Shown here: piece after piece, positions 2,091 through 11,021 of the stretch
Layout of the letters: the number at the start of each line of letters is the position of its first letter
Numbering within the stretch: position 1 is the stretch's first letter
Virus record (IMG/VR): IMGVR_UViG_3300032309_000732
Span: 1 to 22,359 of that record
Length of the DNA stretch: 22,359 nucleotides
Direction: 5' to 3' (one strand)
Source: a virus
Made by a program: the position numbers and the translations under genes
The notes under the pieces: generated by a model
Databases searched by the model: none
Seen by the model: the letters and a program-made list of their open reading frames with translations, nothing else
What the model was told of the DNA's origin: nothing

Positions 2091-3080
2091 TTGACAGATT
2101 TAAATGAACTATTTAAGATCGTATCTGAAGGCAAAAAGCAATACGAAGAGACTGATCCAACCGGTCAAAAGATCAAGCGTGTTAAAGAACATGTTAAGGA
2201 AGATCTAAACTCATTATTCTCACAATTAGTATCACTTAAAGAAGACTTAGAAAAAGAATTAGTAGTAGAAGAAGCTAAGTTAGAACCACCAATGATAACT
2301 GAGGAGATCCCTGCTCAGCCAGTTATCCATACACCAGAAGTCAGAGCAAAACAAGTCGATGCAGACGTTGACAAATATCTGACAGACAAATCATTTCAAC
2401 AGCCAAATCCTGATCTAGTAACTAAGAACATCGATGATATCCGCAATAAGATTAAGTTTTTAGAGCAAGCCATTGGTCGTGTTGCTGCTGCCGGTCCAGG
2501 TGGCGGTGAAGTTAACCTCAGATATTTAGATGACGTAGATCGTTCAACTATCACAGATGGTTGGTATTTAAGATATAGCGCATCAAAGAAAAAATTCGAA
2601 TTTGCTGAAGTCATTTCAAGTGGTGGAAACGGAGCTACTGGTCCTGCTGGAGCAACTGGAGTTACAGGTTCAAGCGGAGCACAAGGTGCTTCAGGATTAA
2701 ATGGTTCTACTGGTCCAACAGGAGCTAGCGGAGTAAATGGTTCAACTGGACCGACAGGATCTACCGGTGTTAATGGAGCTAGTGGTGCACAAGGTGCATC
2801 GGGGGTATATACAATAAATACAGTATTAGTAACAACTTCAACTTATACTGTAGCAAGTAATGATTATTATATAGGTATTAATAGAGCAGGAACAGTTACT
2901 ATAACATTAACTACGCCATCTAATGGAACACGACTAATCATTAAAGATGAATCTGGTAATTGTTCTATTTATCCTATTACAGTATTAGGTACAGTAGATA
3001 ATGATGCAGATGGATTTATATTACAAACAGATAACGGAGCGATTGAATTGATATATCGTTCTGGATGGAGAATAATCTAA
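2091..3080 (+). CDS. Collagen-like phage fibre/structural protein
   Basis: 329 aa, starting at TTG with GGAAG about 9 nt upstream. Domains in order: a charged, probably coiled-coil N-terminal part (1-140), a [14 protein letters not shown] segment followed by [19 protein letters not shown] (about 137-175) that I recognise as a recurrent phage fibre module, a collagen-like Gly-x-y stretch rich in GAT/GPT/GAS triplets (about 178-239), and a C-terminal beta-rich domain ending [12 protein letters not shown]. Collagen-like triple helices in phages form trimeric fibres, so a virion fibre or appendage is likely; receptor binding is possible but unproven. [14 protein letters not shown] is only a weak match to the targeting tag seen in its neighbours. 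The stop overlaps the next ATG (TAATG). Confidence 0.78.
2626..2808 (+). repeat. Collagen-like Gly-x-y coding repeat
   Basis: Degenerate 9-nt-phased repeats encode [15 protein letters not shown] and GVN triplets, for example the recurring GSTGPTG block. The triplet phase is maintained with no obvious interruption. This is the triple-helix segment of the fibre protein and a potential site of length variation by recombination. Confidence 0.85.
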
Positions 3081-4316: not shown

Positions 4317-5894
4317 ATGAAGAACTATAGACAACTCATAAAGGGTTTGCCTTCCAAGACCGTCATCATGACAGTCGGAAGCTTTAACCCTCCTACCTCG
4401 GTCAACGAGATGGCATTCAAACTAGTAGATAAGCTAGTGGAATCCCATAATGCTGACCACATAATCTACGTTACAGAAGACAAGGATAACTTACCTATCG
4501 ATCGTAAGCTGCACTTCCTTGAGCTCATGTTTGGTGCTATGAACTTTAAGCCATTGAACGAGTCAAACTTAACTTCTGAATTAATTAGATTAAAGAGTAA
4601 GTATAAAGATGTCATCGTAGTATCTTCTGAAGATAAAGCCAAGCTATACGAGTCATTACAAGTGGTTACTACAAGCAACGACTTAGACCATTCTAAGATC
4701 AAGTCATATGTAACAAAAGGCGACTTTGCCTCATTTAAGAAACAGATGCCTTCTACACTAAGAGAGCTGGATGCTCGTAGGCTGATGAACGAGATGAGAC
4801 AAGTTACTGGCCTAGAGTTACTCAAAGAAGAAGTCAAGTTTACTGTAGATGCACTTAGAGAGAAGTATTTTAAAGGACAGATCTACCACATAGGTGATAT
4901 CGTTGAGTCTGCTGGACAACAATACGAGATCATGGATCGTGGTTCAAACTACCTAGTCGTTGTTAATAATACTGGCGACCTATCACGTAAATGGATAAAA
5001 GACGTAAAGTTAGTAGAAGCATGTTGGACTGGATATAAACAAGTTGGCACTAAGAAAAAGGGCAGCAGAACAGTCCCTAACTGTGTACCAGAATCTGTAT
5101 TAAACCCTGCAGATCCACATAAAGACTATGCTGAGAAGAGCAAGACTCTACAAGACTTATCGCGTAACAAAGACGTAGATCAAAAAGCTGTACAACAAAG
5201 ACGCTTAGATCTAGACAAAGAATATGGTAAACTTAAAGAAGAAGTATTTAGTTATAAAGGCTATGTACCTAAGAACCTTAACAGCGAATTAGTAGAAGCG
5301 TTCAAGCTTGCAGCGATAGACTCTAAAGATCCTATAGCAATGCTTAATGCTATCAAAACAACTGATACATACTTACAATTACATGGTAAGATTGGTGATA
5401 ATCCAGATATCAATCAGCTTAAGACATATAAAGATGCTCATATTAAAGCTACTGAAGCTTTACAAAAGATCGGTGTATACGATGCTGATGAAGATAAACC
5501 TGATACTAAGATAGCAAGAAACGTATTAACATATCAAGACTTCATGAAAGCTGGCAAAGAACATGTGCCAGAAAATCCAGAGAAATATGTAGGTGAACCT
5601 CATACGACTCCAGGCCATACGTTAGCTACACGTCAACATCTACGTAGACAAAAAGTTAAGTATGTAAATGAAGCAGCATCAGTTACAGACGGAGAAGTAG
5701 AAGGACAAGTGGTTACTAAGATTAAACCACTACCGATTGAACTAGCTCCAGCTCCTGATGAACCAGGCAAACAAAGAGGTAAAGGCAATAGTGCTTTCTT
5801 TGAGAAGAAGAATAAGAAAGTAGAGAAAGAAGCTCTAGACTACCTTGACTTAGATTCATGGTTAAGACAACAATCACAACAGGCACACGGATAA
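4317..5894 (+). CDS. Modular phage protein: degenerate nucleotidyltransferase head plus prohead-peptide-like modules
   Basis: 525 aa. Residues 15-165 resemble the intact nucleotidyltransferase at 1480: VGSFNPPTSVNEMA (20-33) matches [13 protein letters not shown] but GH is replaced by VN, and KIKSYVTKGDFASFKKQMP (127-145) matches [19 protein letters not shown] although the SGT signature is lost. This half is therefore probably catalytically dead. Next come a small module IYHIGDIVESAGQQYEIMDR (189-208) with GSNYLVVV, a CWTGYKQVGTKKKGS segment ending PNCVPE (236-259) that I recognise as a recurrent phage module, and a charged helical C-terminus. Possible prohead-protease sites include LVE-A at 234 and 327 and VNE-A near 450. 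The N-terminus MKNYRQLIKG starts like the tag but lacks Glu at position 10. It follows a late promoter. Confidence 0.68.
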   Translation: MKNYRQLIKGLPSKTVIMTVGSFNPPTSVNEMAFKLVDKLVESHNADHIIYVTEDKDNLPIDRKLHFLELMFGAMNFKPLNESNLTSELIRLKSKYKDVIVVSSEDKAKLYESLQVVTTSNDLDHSKIKSYVTKGDFASFKKQMPSTLRELDARRLMNEMRQVTGLELLKEEVKFTVDALREKYFKGQIYHIGDIVESAGQQYEIMDRGSNYLVVVNNTGDLSRKWIKDVKLVEACWTGYKQVGTKKKGSRTVPNCVPESVLNPADPHKDYAEKSKTLQDLSRNKDVDQKAVQQRRLDLDKEYGKLKEEVFSYKGYVPKNLNSELVEAFKLAAIDSKDPIAMLNAIKTTDTYLQLHGKIGDNPDINQLKTYKDAHIKATEALQKIGVYDADEDKPDTKIARNVLTYQDFMKAGKEHVPENPEKYVGEPHTTPGHTLATRQHLRRQKVKYVNEAASVTDGEVEGQVVTKIKPLPIELAPAPDEPGKQRGKGNSAFFEKKNKKVEKEALDYLDLDSWLRQQSQQAHG

Positions 5895-5896
5895 AT

Positions 5897-6346
5897 ATGG
5901 ATAAATTAATAGCATCTCTTAAAGTAGCATTAGGTAATACATTTACGATGTATTTTAAAGCACACTCATATCATTGGAACGTTGAAGGAATGCATTTTTC
6001 TATGTTTCATGACTTCTTCGGCGAAATCTATGAAGACGTATATGGTGCAGTAGATCCTCTTTCAGAAGAACTACGTAAACTTGATGCGTATGCTCCTATT
6101 AGTTTAATGGAGATCTATGGTTATAAGACTATCATGGAAGATAGTTCAAAACCAGATACAGCTATAGAGATGGTCATGAATTTATTGGCAGCTAACACGG
6201 AAGTATTAAATTGTCTATCACCATTATTTGATGAAGCTACAACACAAAAACAACAAGGTCTTGCAAACTTTATTGCAGATCGTATGGATAGACATAAATT
6301 TTTCGAATGGCAACTACAAGCAACACTTAAGAACCTCGGAGCGTAA
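5897..6346 (+). CDS. Dps-like ferritin (DNA-protecting, iron-oxidising protein)
   Basis: 149 aa from the ATG two nucleotides after the previous stop; an in-frame ATG at 5858 would add 13 poorly conserved residues. The Dps family forms 12-subunit shells that oxidise Fe(II) with peroxide at sites shared between subunits. The signature YHWNVEGMHF is followed by FHDFF, D and E at the expected spacing: aligned with E. coli Dps, the equivalents of H51, H63, D78 and E82 are present, while D67 is replaced by Gly. The usual Lys-rich DNA-binding tail is absent. It lies between genes for predicted head-internal proteins under a late promoter, so virion packaging or late DNA protection is plausible but untested; it lacks the targeting tag. 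Confidence 0.85.
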   Translation: MDKLIASLKVALGNTFTMYFKAHSYHWNVEGMHFSMFHDFFGEIYEDVYGAVDPLSEELRKLDAYAPISLMEIYGYKTIMEDSSKPDTAIEMVMNLLAANTEVLNCLSPLFDEATTQKQQGLANFIADRMDRHKFFEWQLQATLKNLGA

Positions 6347-6348
6347 GA

Positions 6349-9300
6349 ATGAAATCATACAAAGACATGATAAACGAAGTATTAACTAAGTCCACACCAG
6401 CGAGTGAATGGATTAAAGACTTTGTCGACTCTGATAATCCTAAATTTACAGGTAAATCTGCAGCTAAACGTAAACAGATGGCACTAGCTGCTTATTATGC
6501 TAAACAAAACGAATCTTATGCTGGTTCACAAAATAGTACAGCTATCACTGACATGAACGAAGATCATCTAGTACATGTATCCGATGGTTCTAAGTATGAT
6601 GAAGTCCCACACCCAAAAGATATTGAACATGTTAAGACTGGTGCAATGCATCATGGTGGTAAATGGGATAGTCATTCAGATAAAGGCGCATTCTTTAAGT
6701 TTAAATCGAAAGAAGATGCACAACACTTTGTAAGTCATGTTAACAAATGCCCACATAGAACATGCAATGCAGATTTAACAGAAGCTGTAGAGTATAAAGG
6801 TATCGGTACAGATGTAGTTGACAAGAAGAAGAAATTAAATCCACAACCAAATTTTACAACAGATAAAAAACAAGTTAAAGATTTTAAAGAAGAAAAAGAT
6901 AATAGAGAATATGGCTATGAAGGCGATATGGCTATTTCTCAATTAAAAACTATAATTCGACACTCTGAACACTTAATGGGTATGTTAAAACCTGATACCG
7001 ATCTACCAGAATGGGTCCAATCTAAAATTACTTTAGCTACTGATTATATGCAAACTGCACATGATTATCTAATGTCAGAAATAAACGAAGAAGTAGAACA
7101 GATCGATGAAGGCGAAAACGGTTTAGCAGCAAAAGCTAAGAAGTCTGGTATATCTTTATCTACATTAAAGACTGTATACAAAAGAGGCGTAGCAGCATGG
7201 AACTCTGGTCATCGTCCAGGTACAACTCCACAACAATGGGGAATGGCTCGAGTGAATTCATACATCACAAAAGGTTCAGGTACTTATGGTGGTGCTGATA
7301 AAGACTTACACGAAGATGCTCGTCTTGACAAAAAAGAATATCATAAAGGCATGAGCGATAGTACAGCTAAGGCTCGTGTTGCACATTGGAAAAATGCTGA
7401 TAAGTTATCTGATAGTAATCCAAAGGCATATGAACCAGCACCAGGTGATAAGACTGCAAAGACTACACCAAGCGTGCACACTAAAAAATATCATGCTATG
7501 TATGGAGAAGCTAAAGTGTATGATCCATTTACAAAGAAGATGGTTCCTACTAAACCAATCAAAGTTCAAGCTGGTGGCGGTGCAACTAGGAACGGAGTTC
7601 CAGTTGAGACAGGTCCATCAAAATATAAAGAAAAATTAACTAAAGAAGAAACTATTAATGAGTTAAAAGCCTCTACTCTAAAAAGTTATAGTAATAAATC
7701 ATGGCAAAAGGGACTAGATGCTGCTTATGATGCTGCACACAATGTTGATAAAGAAAAAAATTACCAATTAGCATCTAAAAGATTTGCTGGTAGTTTTAAA
7801 GCTAAATCAAAACTTGATAAAATGAAAGAAGAAGTAGAACAAATCGATGAGTTAGATAAAAAGACAATAGGTTCTTACGCTAAGAAAGCAACTAAAGATC
7901 TTAAATGGCAACAAACAATGAGACCATTTGACGCTAAGCGTATTAGTAATAGAGAAAAAGGTATTGATAAAGCTATTGACAAATTAACTAAAGAAGATGT
8001 ACAGATCGATGAGTTATCTAAAGGATTAGTTGCTAGATACGCAAATAAAGTAGCAAAAACTACACAAACTAATTATGATAAATCTAAAGATAAATTTCAA
8101 TTCTCATCAGGTAGACAAGATGGAATGAAAAATGCAGTTAAGAGATTAACTAAAGAAGAATCAGAACAAGTCGATGAGTCTAGTCTTCATCGTCAACACT
8201 TTCAAATGGTAGCTGATCTTATTAAAGGTCATGAATCTGCAGAGAAACGTAAAGAGCTTGCACACCATCATGCAGAGTTATTTAAGAAAGCAAATCCACG
8301 CTTTGATCATGCTAAGTTCATGAAGGCAGCTGGTGTTAACGAAGAAGTACAGATAGATGAAGTCTCTAAGTCAACATTAATGAGATACATCCCTAAAGCA
8401 TCGAGAGATGTAGGTTCACACACTTATGCAGGTAAAGAAGCCGGTGAATGGGCAAGCCATTACACAAGAGCCGGTGACTGGTCTGCAGCAGAGAAACACT
8501 CTAAGAAGTCTTATGCAGACTTTAAGAAAGCAAACAAACGTATCGCAGGTATAGATACCGCAACTAAGAAACTTGGTACACAAAAAGAAGAAGTACAAGT
8601 AGACGAAGCGGCACACGTGTATGATACAAAGACTAATAAAGTGCATAGCAAACACGACACATATAATAAAGCTATCAAAGCTGCAGAGAAACTAAATAAA
8701 GAACATCCAGGTTATGATACACCTGGAAACCTTGTAAGAGATAAATTTGGTGTTAAACGTATAGATGAAGCTATCGCTAAGAAGTTACCAGTACAACATG
8801 CAGTTGATGCAGTACATGCTACATTAGGTCCTAAGTCAGCTACACGTTTCTTATCACACTTAACACCAGGTTCAGATAAGCATACTACATGGGATAAAGT
8901 AAACGATGCATTAGTAAAACAAGGTGTACAGACACATCACATCGCTTCTATTGCACAAAAGACATCTCGTATGAACGAAGAAGTTATTGACGAATCAAGA
9001 GGTCATAAAGTATTAGCTACATTCTTTAAGAACAGAGAAGTTGCACAAAGATCTTATCAAGGTAATCCTGCTAAAGATGCTGAAGTAGCTCAAGGCGGTG
9101 GTAGTCCAGCAGATCAAGGTATCGCTGCAGCTAAGGCTGACTATAAGAAGATGAACAAAGAGAACGTTAATCCAGCTCTGATGGCCATCCTTAAGAAGAG
9201 ACAAGAAGCTCAAAAGAAAAAGCAAGAAGATAAAAAAAAAGTAAGTGAGGCAACGGCTCCAGCGGTGCATGCTGCTGAACCTAAAAAGACTAAGTCTACA

Positions 9301-9630
9301 CCTAAGGAATATGCTAGCGCTACTATACCAGGTACAAAACGTGTAGCACATGCAAAGCCTGATGATAACGAAGTAGGTGGTGGTACTGCTACAAGGATTG
9401 CTGAAGATCAATATACGTCAGAGTATAAGATCAAGTCTTATGTAGATCCGGTTACTGGTGAGAATAAGACTAGAAAGATTAGACCTCATCGTATTAATTT
9501 TAAATCATCTAAGATGAATGCTGCACCAGCACAAATGACAGAGCCAACAAAAGTTACAGAAGATGATAAAGTATACGATGAAAAATGGAAAAAAGTTAAA
9601 TTTACAGATTTTATAAAGGGAGCTAAGTAA
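6349..9630 (+). CDS. Giant modular head polyprotein with multiple predicted prohead-protease sites
   Basis: 1093 aa, very rich in Lys, Glu, Ala and His. It starts MKSYKDMINE-V, close to the T4 capsid-targeting tag MKTYQEFIAE-A. Eight [ILV]DE motifs, most preceded by an acidic E-E-V-x-Q stretch, stand at E254, E501, E555, E610, E671, E753, E807 and E882; weaker ones are LTE145, INE438 and VSE967. This matches the [IL]-x-E rule of T4 gp21 protease. Between them lie short modules, several of which I know from other phages: 12-54 (SDNPKFTGKSAAKRKQMAL), 187-254, 255-322 (DUF5824-type, AAWNSGHRPGTTPQQWGMAR), 341-387 (PKAYEPAPGDK...MYGE), 611-671, and a repeated SKxTLxxY module at 439, 502, 556 and 672. 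A GGAG stands about 7 nt before the ATG. Predicted role: precursor of packaged internal peptides. Processing is inferred. Confidence 0.75.
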   Translation: MKSYKDMINEVLTKSTPASEWIKDFVDSDNPKFTGKSAAKRKQMALAAYYAKQNESYAGSQNSTAITDMNEDHLVHVSDGSKYDEVPHPKDIEHVKTGAMHHGGKWDSHSDKGAFFKFKSKEDAQHFVSHVNKCPHRTCNADLTEAVEYKGIGTDVVDKKKKLNPQPNFTTDKKQVKDFKEEKDNREYGYEGDMAISQLKTIIRHSEHLMGMLKPDTDLPEWVQSKITLATDYMQTAHDYLMSEINEEVEQIDEGENGLAAKAKKSGISLSTLKTVYKRGVAAWNSGHRPGTTPQQWGMARVNSYITKGSGTYGGADKDLHEDARLDKKEYHKGMSDSTAKARVAHWKNADKLSDSNPKAYEPAPGDKTAKTTPSVHTKKYHAMYGEAKVYDPFTKKMVPTKPIKVQAGGGATRNGVPVETGPSKYKEKLTKEETINELKASTLKSYSNKSWQKGLDAAYDAAHNVDKEKNYQLASKRFAGSFKAKSKLDKMKEEVEQIDELDKKTIGSYAKKATKDLKWQQTMRPFDAKRISNREKGIDKAIDKLTKEDVQIDELSKGLVARYANKVAKTTQTNYDKSKDKFQFSSGRQDGMKNAVKRLTKEESEQVDESSLHRQHFQMVADLIKGHESAEKRKELAHHHAELFKKANPRFDHAKFMKAAGVNEEVQIDEVSKSTLMRYIPKASRDVGSHTYAGKEAGEWASHYTRAGDWSAAEKHSKKSYADFKKANKRIAGIDTATKKLGTQKEEVQVDEAAHVYDTKTNKVHSKHDTYNKAIKAAEKLNKEHPGYDTPGNLVRDKFGVKRIDEAIAKKLPVQHAVDAVHATLGPKSATRFLSHLTPGSDKHTTWDKVNDALVKQGVQTHHIASIAQKTSRMNEEVIDESRGHKVLATFFKNREVAQRSYQGNPAKDAEVAQGGGSPADQGIAAAKADYKKMNKENVNPALMAILKKRQEAQKKKQEDKKKVSEATAPAVHAAEPKKTKSTPKEYASATIPGTKRVAHAKPDDNEVGGGTATRIAEDQYTSEYKIKSYVDPVTGENKTRKIRPHRINFKSSKMNAAPAQMTEPTKVTEDDKVYDEKWKKVKFTDFIKGAK
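7663..8607 (+). repeat. Diverged protein-coding module repeats ([IL]DE-L-S-K-x-T-L-x-x-Y)
   Basis: Four related modules begin directly after a predicted cleavage Glu: 7663-7851 (LKASTLKSYSNKSW), 7852-8013 (LDKKTIGSYAKKATKD), 8014-8178 (LSKGLVARYANKVAK) and 8362-8607 (VSKSTLMRYIPKASRD). Each ends in a R/K-x-x-G-I/M-x-x-A-x-x-x-L-like helix and a KEE-rich linker. The interval 8179-8361 holds an unrelated module. The linker DNA itself is similar, for example GAAGAAGTAGAACA at 7087 and 7828. A second array lies at 10278-10680. Confidence 0.75.
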
Positions 9631-11021
9631 TGTTAAAGTTTAATGACTACTTAAAAGAGGCTGCATTGTCAGCTAAGCAAAAGAAGATCGCAGCGGTCGC
9701 TGGCGACAAAGACAAGATTGATGCTGCAGACTTAGCTGCTTTAAGAGCTGGTAAGAAACCTGTCGATGAAGCTAGTTGCTCTGGTAAAGATATGAAGAAA
9801 GAAGAGCTCGTTGGTAATCAACATAAGCTTGACAAAAATAAAAACGGTAAACTAGATGCTCATGACTTTAAGTTACTTCGTAAAGAAGCTAAAGACGGTT
9901 GGAGTAAAAATGATTCATTAGCTAAACCAATAACATCTAGTCAAGCTATGGCAGATCACTCTAAATACTTTAATAAAGTTACTAAATTAGATCCTAAAAC
10001 GGGTGAACCTATTAAGAAAGATGTTAAAGAAGAAGTAGAAGAGTTAGACGAAGGCCGTGTTAAAGAACTTGCAATGGATCTTAAAGATATGAGTCATGAC
10101 GAGTTCCATAAACGATATGGCAAACCTAAGTCTCATTTCGATCCTACAAACTTTAAGAAACCAGTAGAACCTGGTAAAGGTATGGATCGTGCTAAAGCTT
10201 TAGCTCAACGCGGTATGCAATCATTATCTAAAGAAGAAGTAGAACGTATCGAAGAAAAGTTATCACAGTTAGATGAGTTATCAAAGAATACTTTAGGTTC
10301 ATATGTTAAACGTTCTGCTAATCAAGCTATTGTTAAGAGTTTAGCAAATCCTAAAGATGATTCTGATGACATGAAAACTATTGCTAAACGTGAAAAAGGT
10401 ATTAATTTAGCAACATCAAAACTAGCTAAAGAAGAGACAGAACAAATCGATGAGTTATCAAAGAAGACTTTAGGTTCATATGTAAATAAAGCAGCTAAAG
10501 ATTCACGTATCCATGGCCAAATAGCCACTGATTTTGAAAACACTGCTGATAAAGCTAGAAAGCAATCAAAGAAAGATTCTTTTGAAAGATTAAACAGAAA
10601 ATATTTAGAAAAATCATGGAAGCGTGAAGATGGTATTGCTAAAGCTGTAGGTAAATTAACTAAAGAAGAAGTTTCAGCTGAGATGTCACCATATCTAAAA
10701 GCTACGCTTAAAGTTATGGACGAAGGTAAGATCGATAACCTTAGAGATGCACAGAAGTTAAGAAGAGATACACAATCAGCATATGAAAAAGATTACAAAC
10801 CAGACACAAGTCATCCGCATATCCAAGTAGTTAAAGGTAGTGCGTATGGCGGTGCGAACCAAAAAGATGATGAAGGTGATGAGAAGCCTGATGAAACAAA
10901 AGAGAAAAAAGGTCGTGGCAGACCTACTGGATCTAAATCAGGTGCTAGACAAAAAGGTGGTGGACATGAAGACGGCGGTATTCCTGTGCATAACTTAAAC
11001 TTGCCAAAATCATATAAATAG
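9630..11021 (+). CDS. Second modular head polyprotein, with an EF-hand and SKxTLGSY modules
   Basis: 463 aa, starting MLKFNDYLKE-A, a predicted capsid-targeting and cleavage signal. Residues 68-79 (DKNKNGKLDAHD) form a canonical EF-hand calcium loop: D1, N3, N5, G6, L8, D9, D12. An upstream GDKDKIDAADLAALR (25-39) looks like a degenerate first hand lacking two loop residues, separated from the second by VDE47. Further predicted protease sites are LDE141, LDE216, IDE275 and MDE365. Two LSKxTLGSYV modules (217-275 and 276 to about 348) are homologous to those in the preceding protein. The C-terminus holds a GRGRPTGSKSGARQKGGG segment resembling an AT-hook (GRGRP) followed by a basic Gly-rich tail, which could bind AT-rich DNA. 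The start overlaps the upstream stop (TAATG) with AGGGAG before it. Confidence 0.72.
   Translation: MLKFNDYLKEAALSAKQKKIAAVAGDKDKIDAADLAALRAGKKPVDEASCSGKDMKKEELVGNQHKLDKNKNGKLDAHDFKLLRKEAKDGWSKNDSLAKPITSSQAMADHSKYFNKVTKLDPKTGEPIKKDVKEEVEELDEGRVKELAMDLKDMSHDEFHKRYGKPKSHFDPTNFKKPVEPGKGMDRAKALAQRGMQSLSKEEVERIEEKLSQLDELSKNTLGSYVKRSANQAIVKSLANPKDDSDDMKTIAKREKGINLATSKLAKEETEQIDELSKKTLGSYVNKAAKDSRIHGQIATDFENTADKARKQSKKDSFERLNRKYLEKSWKREDGIAKAVGKLTKEEVSAEMSPYLKATLKVMDEGKIDNLRDAQKLRRDTQSAYEKDYKPDTSHPHIQVVKGSAYGGANQKDDEGDEKPDETKEKKGRGRPTGSKSGARQKGGGHEDGGIPVHNLNLPKSYK
10278..10680 (+). repeat. Second array of SKxTLGSY modules
   Basis: Two modules, 10278-10454 and 10455 to about 10680, encode LSKNTLGSYVKRSA and LSKKTLGSYVNKAAKD, each preceded by [LI]DE. 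Each ends with a R-E-K/D-G-I-x-x-A-x-x-K-L-x-K-E-E sequence. They are closer to each other and to the 7852 module than to the remaining copies, which suggests exchange or duplication between the two polyprotein genes. Confidence 0.75.
11013..11020 (+). promoter_or_regulatory. T4-type late promoter TATAAATA
   Basis: An exact TATAAATA overlapping the end of the upstream gene, 24 nt before the ATG at 11044. The expected start site near 11026 leaves a short leader containing the AAGGAG at 11031-11036. It would give strong late expression of the downstream virion protein. Confidence 0.8.

Follow-up and report, generated by a model that had tools for sequence, protein, structure and literature searches.

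A probable modular prohead-core precursor, with likely protease sites between its modules, in a T4-type phage fragment

Results

A protein that resembles a precursor

The DNA we have analyzed (the window) is a virus fragment of 22,359 nucleotides, positions 1 to 22,359 of IMG/VR record IMGVR_UViG_3300032309_000732. One of its genes codes for a protein of 1093 amino acids, which is quite probably a modular prohead-core precursor of a T4-type (Kyanoviridae-like) phage that would be cut into pieces by a gp21-type protease. Sequence comparison shows a targeting-like start, a consensus for the sites, module boundaries which fall at these sites, gp21 in related phages, and one family of modules (K) in core proteins. 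The cutting step itself is strongly indicated by this comparison. The gene and its parts are as follows; a slash marks a cut or its predicted place, and x is any amino acid.

6349–9630, + strand: 1093-residue multi-module precursor (putative); ATG start, 122 kDa, isoelectric point 9.4
6349–6378, + strand: capsid-targeting-like sequence MKSYKDMINE/V (residues 1–10), with the layout of T4 internal proteins
6379–6561, + strand: M1 (residues 11–71), ends in MNE; 24 homologues, internal copies elsewhere also follow [ILV]xE
6562–6783, + strand: M2 (72–145), small alpha/beta domain, ends in LTE; profile search, flanks, AlphaFold
6784–6891, + strand: M3 (146–181); its C-terminal junction, DFKE, is non-canonical
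6892–7110, + strand: M4 (182–254), ends in EEVEQIDE; 31 homologues, such as cyanophage S-WAM2 gp081
7111–7314, + strand: M5, DUF5824 (255–322), ends in LHE; PF19141, stand-alone behind a targeting sequence in L051, L060 and L074
7315–7662, + strand: M6 and M7 (323–438), end in INE; the junction between them, MYGE/A, is non-canonical
7663–7851, + strand: M8 (439–501), weak K-family member, ends in EEVEQIDE; profile match
7852–8013, + strand: M9, K family (502–555), ends in QIDE; profile match
8014–8178, + strand: M10, K family (556–610), ends in QVDE; profile match
8179–8361, + strand: M11 (611–671), ends in QIDE; 12 homologues
8362–8607, + strand: M12, K family (672–753), ends in QVDE; profile match
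8608–8769, + strand: M13 (754–807), ends in RIDE; profile search, flanks
8770–8994, + strand: M14 (808–882), ends in VIDE; profile search, flanks
8995–9249, + strand: M15 (883–967), ends in VSE; E directly upstream of it in 9 of 9 distinct contexts
9250–9405, + strand: M16 (968–1019), ends in IAE; flanks
9406–9561, + strand: M17 (1020–1071), ends in VTE; flanks in relatives
9562–9630, + strand: C-terminal tail M18 (1072–1093) and stop; profile search

An earlier reading of the sequence, here called the original prediction, had described this protein as a polyprotein of about 12 to 15 packaged peptides. Its reading frame is exact on re-translation, and so are the positions it gave for eight [ILV]DE motifs (glutamates at residues 254, 501, 555, 610, 671, 753, 807 and 882) and for LTE145, INE438 and VSE967. 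There are more sites of the same kind: INE10 at the N-terminus, MNE71, LHE322, IAE1019 and VTE1071. Some sites are doubled, at 244/247, 494, 665, 877 and 1065. The number of pieces is nearer 16, from about 15 canonical sites; that they are packaged is something we infer. Eight [ILV]DE motifs compare with a mean of 0.74 and a maximum of 5 in 5000 shuffled versions of the protein. The wider [ILV]xE motif occurs 18 times, compared with 10.3 after shuffling, and 39 of the 5000 shuffles reach 18. An acidic linker of the EEV-x-Q type, which had been reported before most sites, precedes residues 254, 501, 555, 610, 671 and 753 and is absent at 807 and 882.

The modules had also been supposed to be mutually unrelated. 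This is not the case for four of them, which are paralogues and form a single family, K (SKKTLGSY). Residues 502–555 (E 2e-15), 556–610 (E 2e-10) and 672–753 (E 4e-21) belong to it, and residues 439–501 are a weak member (E 1e-5). The presence of a DUF5824-type module was correctly foreseen: Pfam PF19141 matches residues 262–319 with an E value of 1.9e-16. It is the only Pfam match of the protein above the cut-off; NCBIfam gives nothing, and none of ten single stretches scanned against Pfam reaches the cut-off.

A single-sequence AlphaFold model of the whole protein is poor, with a mean predicted local distance difference test (pLDDT) of 44 and confident islands only in M2, M5 and M11. For the K module the model is a confident hairpin of two helices (pLDDT 94), and its profile has no match among PDB sequences. 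The folds matched are generic, helical hairpins for K and ferredoxin-like folds for M2 (Z near 8 or below), and we have drawn no function from them.

The targeting-like start

Short N-terminal targeting sequences which end in [IL]xE are a feature of T4 internal head proteins, and the 1093-residue protein has one. Its start, MKSYKDMINE/V, resembles that of T4 IPII and IPIII (MKTYQEFIAE/A) when the sequences are compared, and the tag of T4 IPI (MKTFKEF..TITE/A) has the same layout. Ten residues of IPIII suffice for packaging into the T4 head (PMC9026906). The targeting-like start is kept in orthologues, as MKTLKEFRIQINE/V and MKSYKDLTQRLDE/I. The first helix of the K module (TLGSYVKKA) might be seen as an internal targeting signal by its likeness to KFNDYLKEA, which we do not claim, since amphipathic helices match easily.

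Sites at the module boundaries

Profiles of 18 modules, whose cores were delimited by hand between the sites of the window protein, were searched one by one against 2622 open reading frames (ORFs) from 135 sequences. K is found 252 times, in 109 proteins. The orthologues from IMG/VR (L003–L009, L030–L032) have from 771 to 1264 amino acids, and their modules have been gained, lost and reordered at the sites. An [ILVM]xE motif lies upstream of the module cores in 156 of 178 distinct contexts, compared with 2.3% of the 12-mers within cores. For modules other than K the figure is 121 of 145 contexts, the shuffled mean being 52 and the maximum 66.

The distance from the glutamate to the module is small and nearly fixed, whatever sequence precedes the module. 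A clear example is M1, where the offset to [ILV]xE is 3 in 12 of 13 cases, both behind an N-terminal tag and at internal positions. M11 is preceded by [ILVM]xE at an offset of 3–4 in all nine distinct contexts. In most relatives M7 follows [ILV][DE]E, unlike the MYGE/A of the window protein. Different relatives have SLDE, RIQE, RIAE, KITE or QIKE before M17 (LAAE in one): position P1 is constant, P2 is free.

The same picture is obtained from K modules, which were retrieved with a pattern that excludes the site. In 44 distinct upstream contexts P1 is always E (44/44), P3 is I, L or V in 43, and P2 may be D, N, S, F, T, E, Q, H and others. This consensus corresponds to the published cleavage motif of T4 gp21, L/I-x-E (PMC9026906). 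Leucine, usual at P1' before K modules, should be tolerated, since T4 Alt is cut at ITE/L (PMC5694885), a site which we also read in the Alt sequence.

DUF5824 alone and inside long proteins

Several modules were expected to occur singly in other phages, and they do: DUF5824 is found alone in proteins of 79–90 amino acids, M4 in proteins of 81–83. Stand-alone DUF5824 proteins of 86–90 amino acids start with MITFKSYLAE/EADTG.., MDNFKTYLRE/NADSA.. or MITFKKYLEE... Inside long proteins the domain is preceded by QIDE, EIDE or QLDE; when alone, by the site of the targeting sequence, YLAE or YLRE. Since stand-alone DUF5824 directly follows a targeting sequence, the internal IDE site appears to stand in for that of the targeting sequence.

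A Peptidase_S77 is encoded by each of the seven T4-type isolates with these modules that we checked, and the gp21-type enzyme is also present in the large relatives L015 and L017. In the Pelagibacter podophages HTVC111P, HTVC202P and HTVC026P, DUF5824 is a protein of 79–81 amino acids with no glutamate at all, and the S77 profile has no match in these three phages. The Actinomycetia phage DSL-LC01 has DUF5824 within a longer protein (L145, 1967–3010) with no site at the usual offset and no detectable S77. No paper on DUF5824 was found in the literature we searched, which did not include subscription journals or preprints.

Links to the prohead core

K-module ORFs are also found next to the protease gene. 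They lie 3–1268 nt upstream of gp21 in all 16 loci holding both, several of which are near-duplicates. In L108 and L127 they are found between the genes for portal and protease. Their N-terminal parts match phrog_1064, a "prohead" family; in position and type these ORFs correspond to T4 gp67. In L111, the scaffold protein gp22 (4632–6284) carries an insertion of three K modules, which follows LFE. The gp22 of L127, 81% identical to it, has no K modules and shows about 60 unrelated residues at that place. T4 gp22 and gp67 are established substrates of gp21, cut at several sites (PMC9026906).

Virion proteomes of relatives

The virion proteome of S-CREM2 includes gp154, gp155, gp156 and gp160 (PMC10665884, Table 3). 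Its gp154 is a cytidylyltransferase with the start MKNFSSFLTE/A, homologous to the product of 1474–2088 in the window. The orthologous cytidylyltransferase was also detected in S-SM1 virions (PMC3037559). S-CREM2 gp160 is a chain of modules of 297 amino acids with [IL]xE boundaries such as KLSE and EISE, and two of these modules are shared with P-TIM68 gp159, which additionally carries K and M1 modules. Another isolate whose multi-module protein is clear is Pelagibacter phage HTVC008M (gp130).

Neighbouring genes

In the window, genes for DUF6267 and then a cytidylyltransferase-like protein are followed by several unknown genes, a phrog_613 head protein, a primase and ribonucleotide reductase subunits. 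This order parallels that of Kyanoviridae such as S-WAM2 and S-CREM2. A T4-like capsid-targeting start is common to several window genes. The genes of interest are:

37–1224, + strand: DUF6267 protein, targeting-like start MIEFKQFITE/A
1211–1486, + strand: DUF6321 protein, targeting-like start MLTFKEYLKE/D
1474–2088, + strand: cytidylyltransferase-like protein with a targeting-like start, homologue of S-CREM2 gp154
4317–5894, + strand: third multi-module protein, a cytidylyltransferase-like head followed by modules (module matches), start MKNYRQLIKG
9630–11021, + strand: second putative precursor, 463 amino acids, targeting-like start MLKFNDYLKE/A, two K modules (10278–10454 and 10455–10670) and an EF-hand-like loop
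13955–14671, + strand: protein with targeting-like start MNYTQYITE/L, 49% identical to S-CREM2 gp156

The protein at 4317–5894 has LIKG at the tag site, where relatives have LIKE or LIRE, and the HxGH-type motif of its cytidylyltransferase-like part is degenerate (PTSVNE, compared with PTSGH in the intact neighbour). The EF-hand-like loop of the second precursor, DKNKNGKLDAHDF, lies in one of its modules, and the motif recurs in several multi-module relatives. Other genes of this region are a Dps/ferritin-like gene (5858–6346), directly 5' of the putative polyprotein gene, and a gene for a collagen-like repeat protein (GxTGxxG, 2091–3080) within the head-gene cluster.

Discussion

The original prediction of a polyprotein cut by a gp21-type prohead protease is supported by several independent kinds of comparative evidence: the targeting sequence, the site consensus, the shuffling of modules, the constant distances from site to module, the tagged modules that stand alone, the lack of sites where no S77 protease is detected, and the K modules within gp22 and near gp21. 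Its further statement, that the pieces are packaged, may hold for some of them. We propose that the uncut chain would be carried into the core together with the scaffold gp22 by its targeting peptide, and probably also by the helical K modules. Once the shell closes, the gp21-type (S77) protease would remove the targeting peptide and cut at about 15 [ILVM]xE sites, which would yield some 16 domains, small and for the most part basic. A number of modules would probably be kept along with the DNA and pass into the host, in the manner of T4 IPI–III and Alt; this retention and ejection we infer. The K modules and the acidic linkers are most likely the discarded pieces, and may leave as T4 gp22 and gp67 fragments do.

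Several observations do not favour this proposal. The window has no gp21, gp22 or gp23 of its own and is too short to show the protease. The junctions M3/M4 (DFKE) and M6/M7 (MYGE) are non-canonical, and no site precedes M6 in 7 of its 10 contexts. Downstream flanks show the motif less frequently, in 159 of 251. The scarcity of the motif within cores is partly due to construction, the cores having been drawn by hand; this applies much less to flank figures from other proteins. A strict targeting-sequence pattern is found in 37 of 138 complete-looking module proteins and in 68 of 550 other ORFs, start sites being uncertain. The virion mass spectrometry of S-CREM2 may include contaminants, according to its authors (PMC10665884).

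The chain might also be a pure scaffold which is completely digested and leaves the head in the way of T4 gp22 and gp67, so that nothing is delivered to the host. The cutting step is common to this view and our proposal; what becomes of the pieces is different. The K modules in gp67-position ORFs and inside gp22 fit it well, and most T4 core fragments do exit the head (PMC9026906). Nevertheless, many modules (DUF5824, M2, M4, M11 and M14) are distinct, and they are also found single or joined to a cytidylyltransferase-like protein whose family has been detected in virions, a diversity which a scaffold alone would not need. We consider a pure scaffold rather unlikely.

It is improbable that the protein is delivered intact with the DNA, its linkers being merely flexible spacers, as in polyvalent proteins. 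Large multidomain phage proteins which are injected uncut are known, for example the N4 virion RNA polymerase (PMC5512222). But spacers need no invariant glutamate at P1, hydrophobic P3, free P2 or fixed offsets, and the same site borders the targeting peptide in stand-alone versions. In addition, Pfam, PHROGs and NCBIfam reveal neither an enzymatic domain typical of polyvalent proteins nor an embedded peptidase in the 1093-residue protein.

A still smaller chance is left to the idea that the linkers are recombination cassettes, whose conserved border DNA promotes shuffling, with the motif as a by-product. Shuffling is indeed heavy, and many linkers read EEVEQIDE. On the other hand, synonymous codons differ between sites of the same gene (ATC GAT GAA, ATC GAT GAG, GTC GAT GAG, GTA GAC GAA, ATT GAC GAA), P1 and P3 are kept while P2 and the linker change, and the podophage copies have no site. 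Caulobacter phage Cr30, an isolated phage, has an independent multi-module protein, gp064 (L137, 2762–4810, 682 amino acids), with the linkers SENLNE and SEEMINE, which would be easy to study in the laboratory. Since the codons differ within a gene and the Cr30 linkers differ from the others, selection appears to act on the protein. A tail component is unlikely, with no tail family among the PHROGs matches of the protein.

Tagged internal proteins are already known, as are gp21 and head proteins which receive multiple cuts, and the 1093-residue protein has features of several such systems. Like T4 IPI, IPII, IPIII and Alt, it has a tag of about ten residues ending in [IL]xE with variable bodies behind a conserved tag; these are likewise lysine-rich small proteins of a phage with a gp21-type protease. 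The T4 proteins are encoded by separate genes and receive one N-terminal cut (Alt also one at the C-terminus), whereas the window protein has about 16 modules behind one tag, in one chain. T4 gp22 and gp67 are also cut by gp21 at multiple L/I-x-E sites, and in relatives one gp22 and ORFs in the gp67 position hold K modules, but they are not strings of shuffled domains which also occur separately. The ejection proteins of phiKZ and SPN3US (such as SPN3US gp53 and gp54) are head proteins which the prohead protease cuts several times after x-E. The cuts reported for SPN3US (A-x-E motif) strip propeptides from a single mature protein (PMC10052503); they do not divide a string of separate modules. 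The polyvalent proteins found in phages and in conjugative elements (PMC5512222) also have many domains per chain, shuffled architectures and a predicted travel with the DNA; they differ in that their domains are large and enzymatic and that the chain often includes a peptidase, whereas the window protein has short non-enzymatic modules and sites for a separate prohead protease. In the literature searched, with the limits given above, we found no shuffled multi-module polyprotein of internal head proteins which combines unrelated small domains with core proteins.

T4 IPI is an inhibitor of host restriction. Since the T4 internal proteins include such an inhibitor, the modules are candidates for counter-defence functions. 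There is about an even chance that this arrangement is general in a large group of T4-like phages from aquatic habitats. Interchangeable cassettes of small peptides, which would act on the host or pack DNA, would then form one string to be cut up by the head protease: a single tag would import the string into the prohead, the pieces would be equimolar, and cassettes could be swapped at the sites in evolution without breaking assembly.

If our proposal is correct, many "hypothetical" proteins of marine and freshwater T4-like phages would be precursors, not final products, and modules rather than ORFs would be the functional units for annotation, proteomics and structural work. The sites would also provide a natural map of prohead-protease cleavage and a modular tag with which cargo could be loaded into capsids. 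A single gene would allow these phages to deliver a set of peptides in constant proportions.

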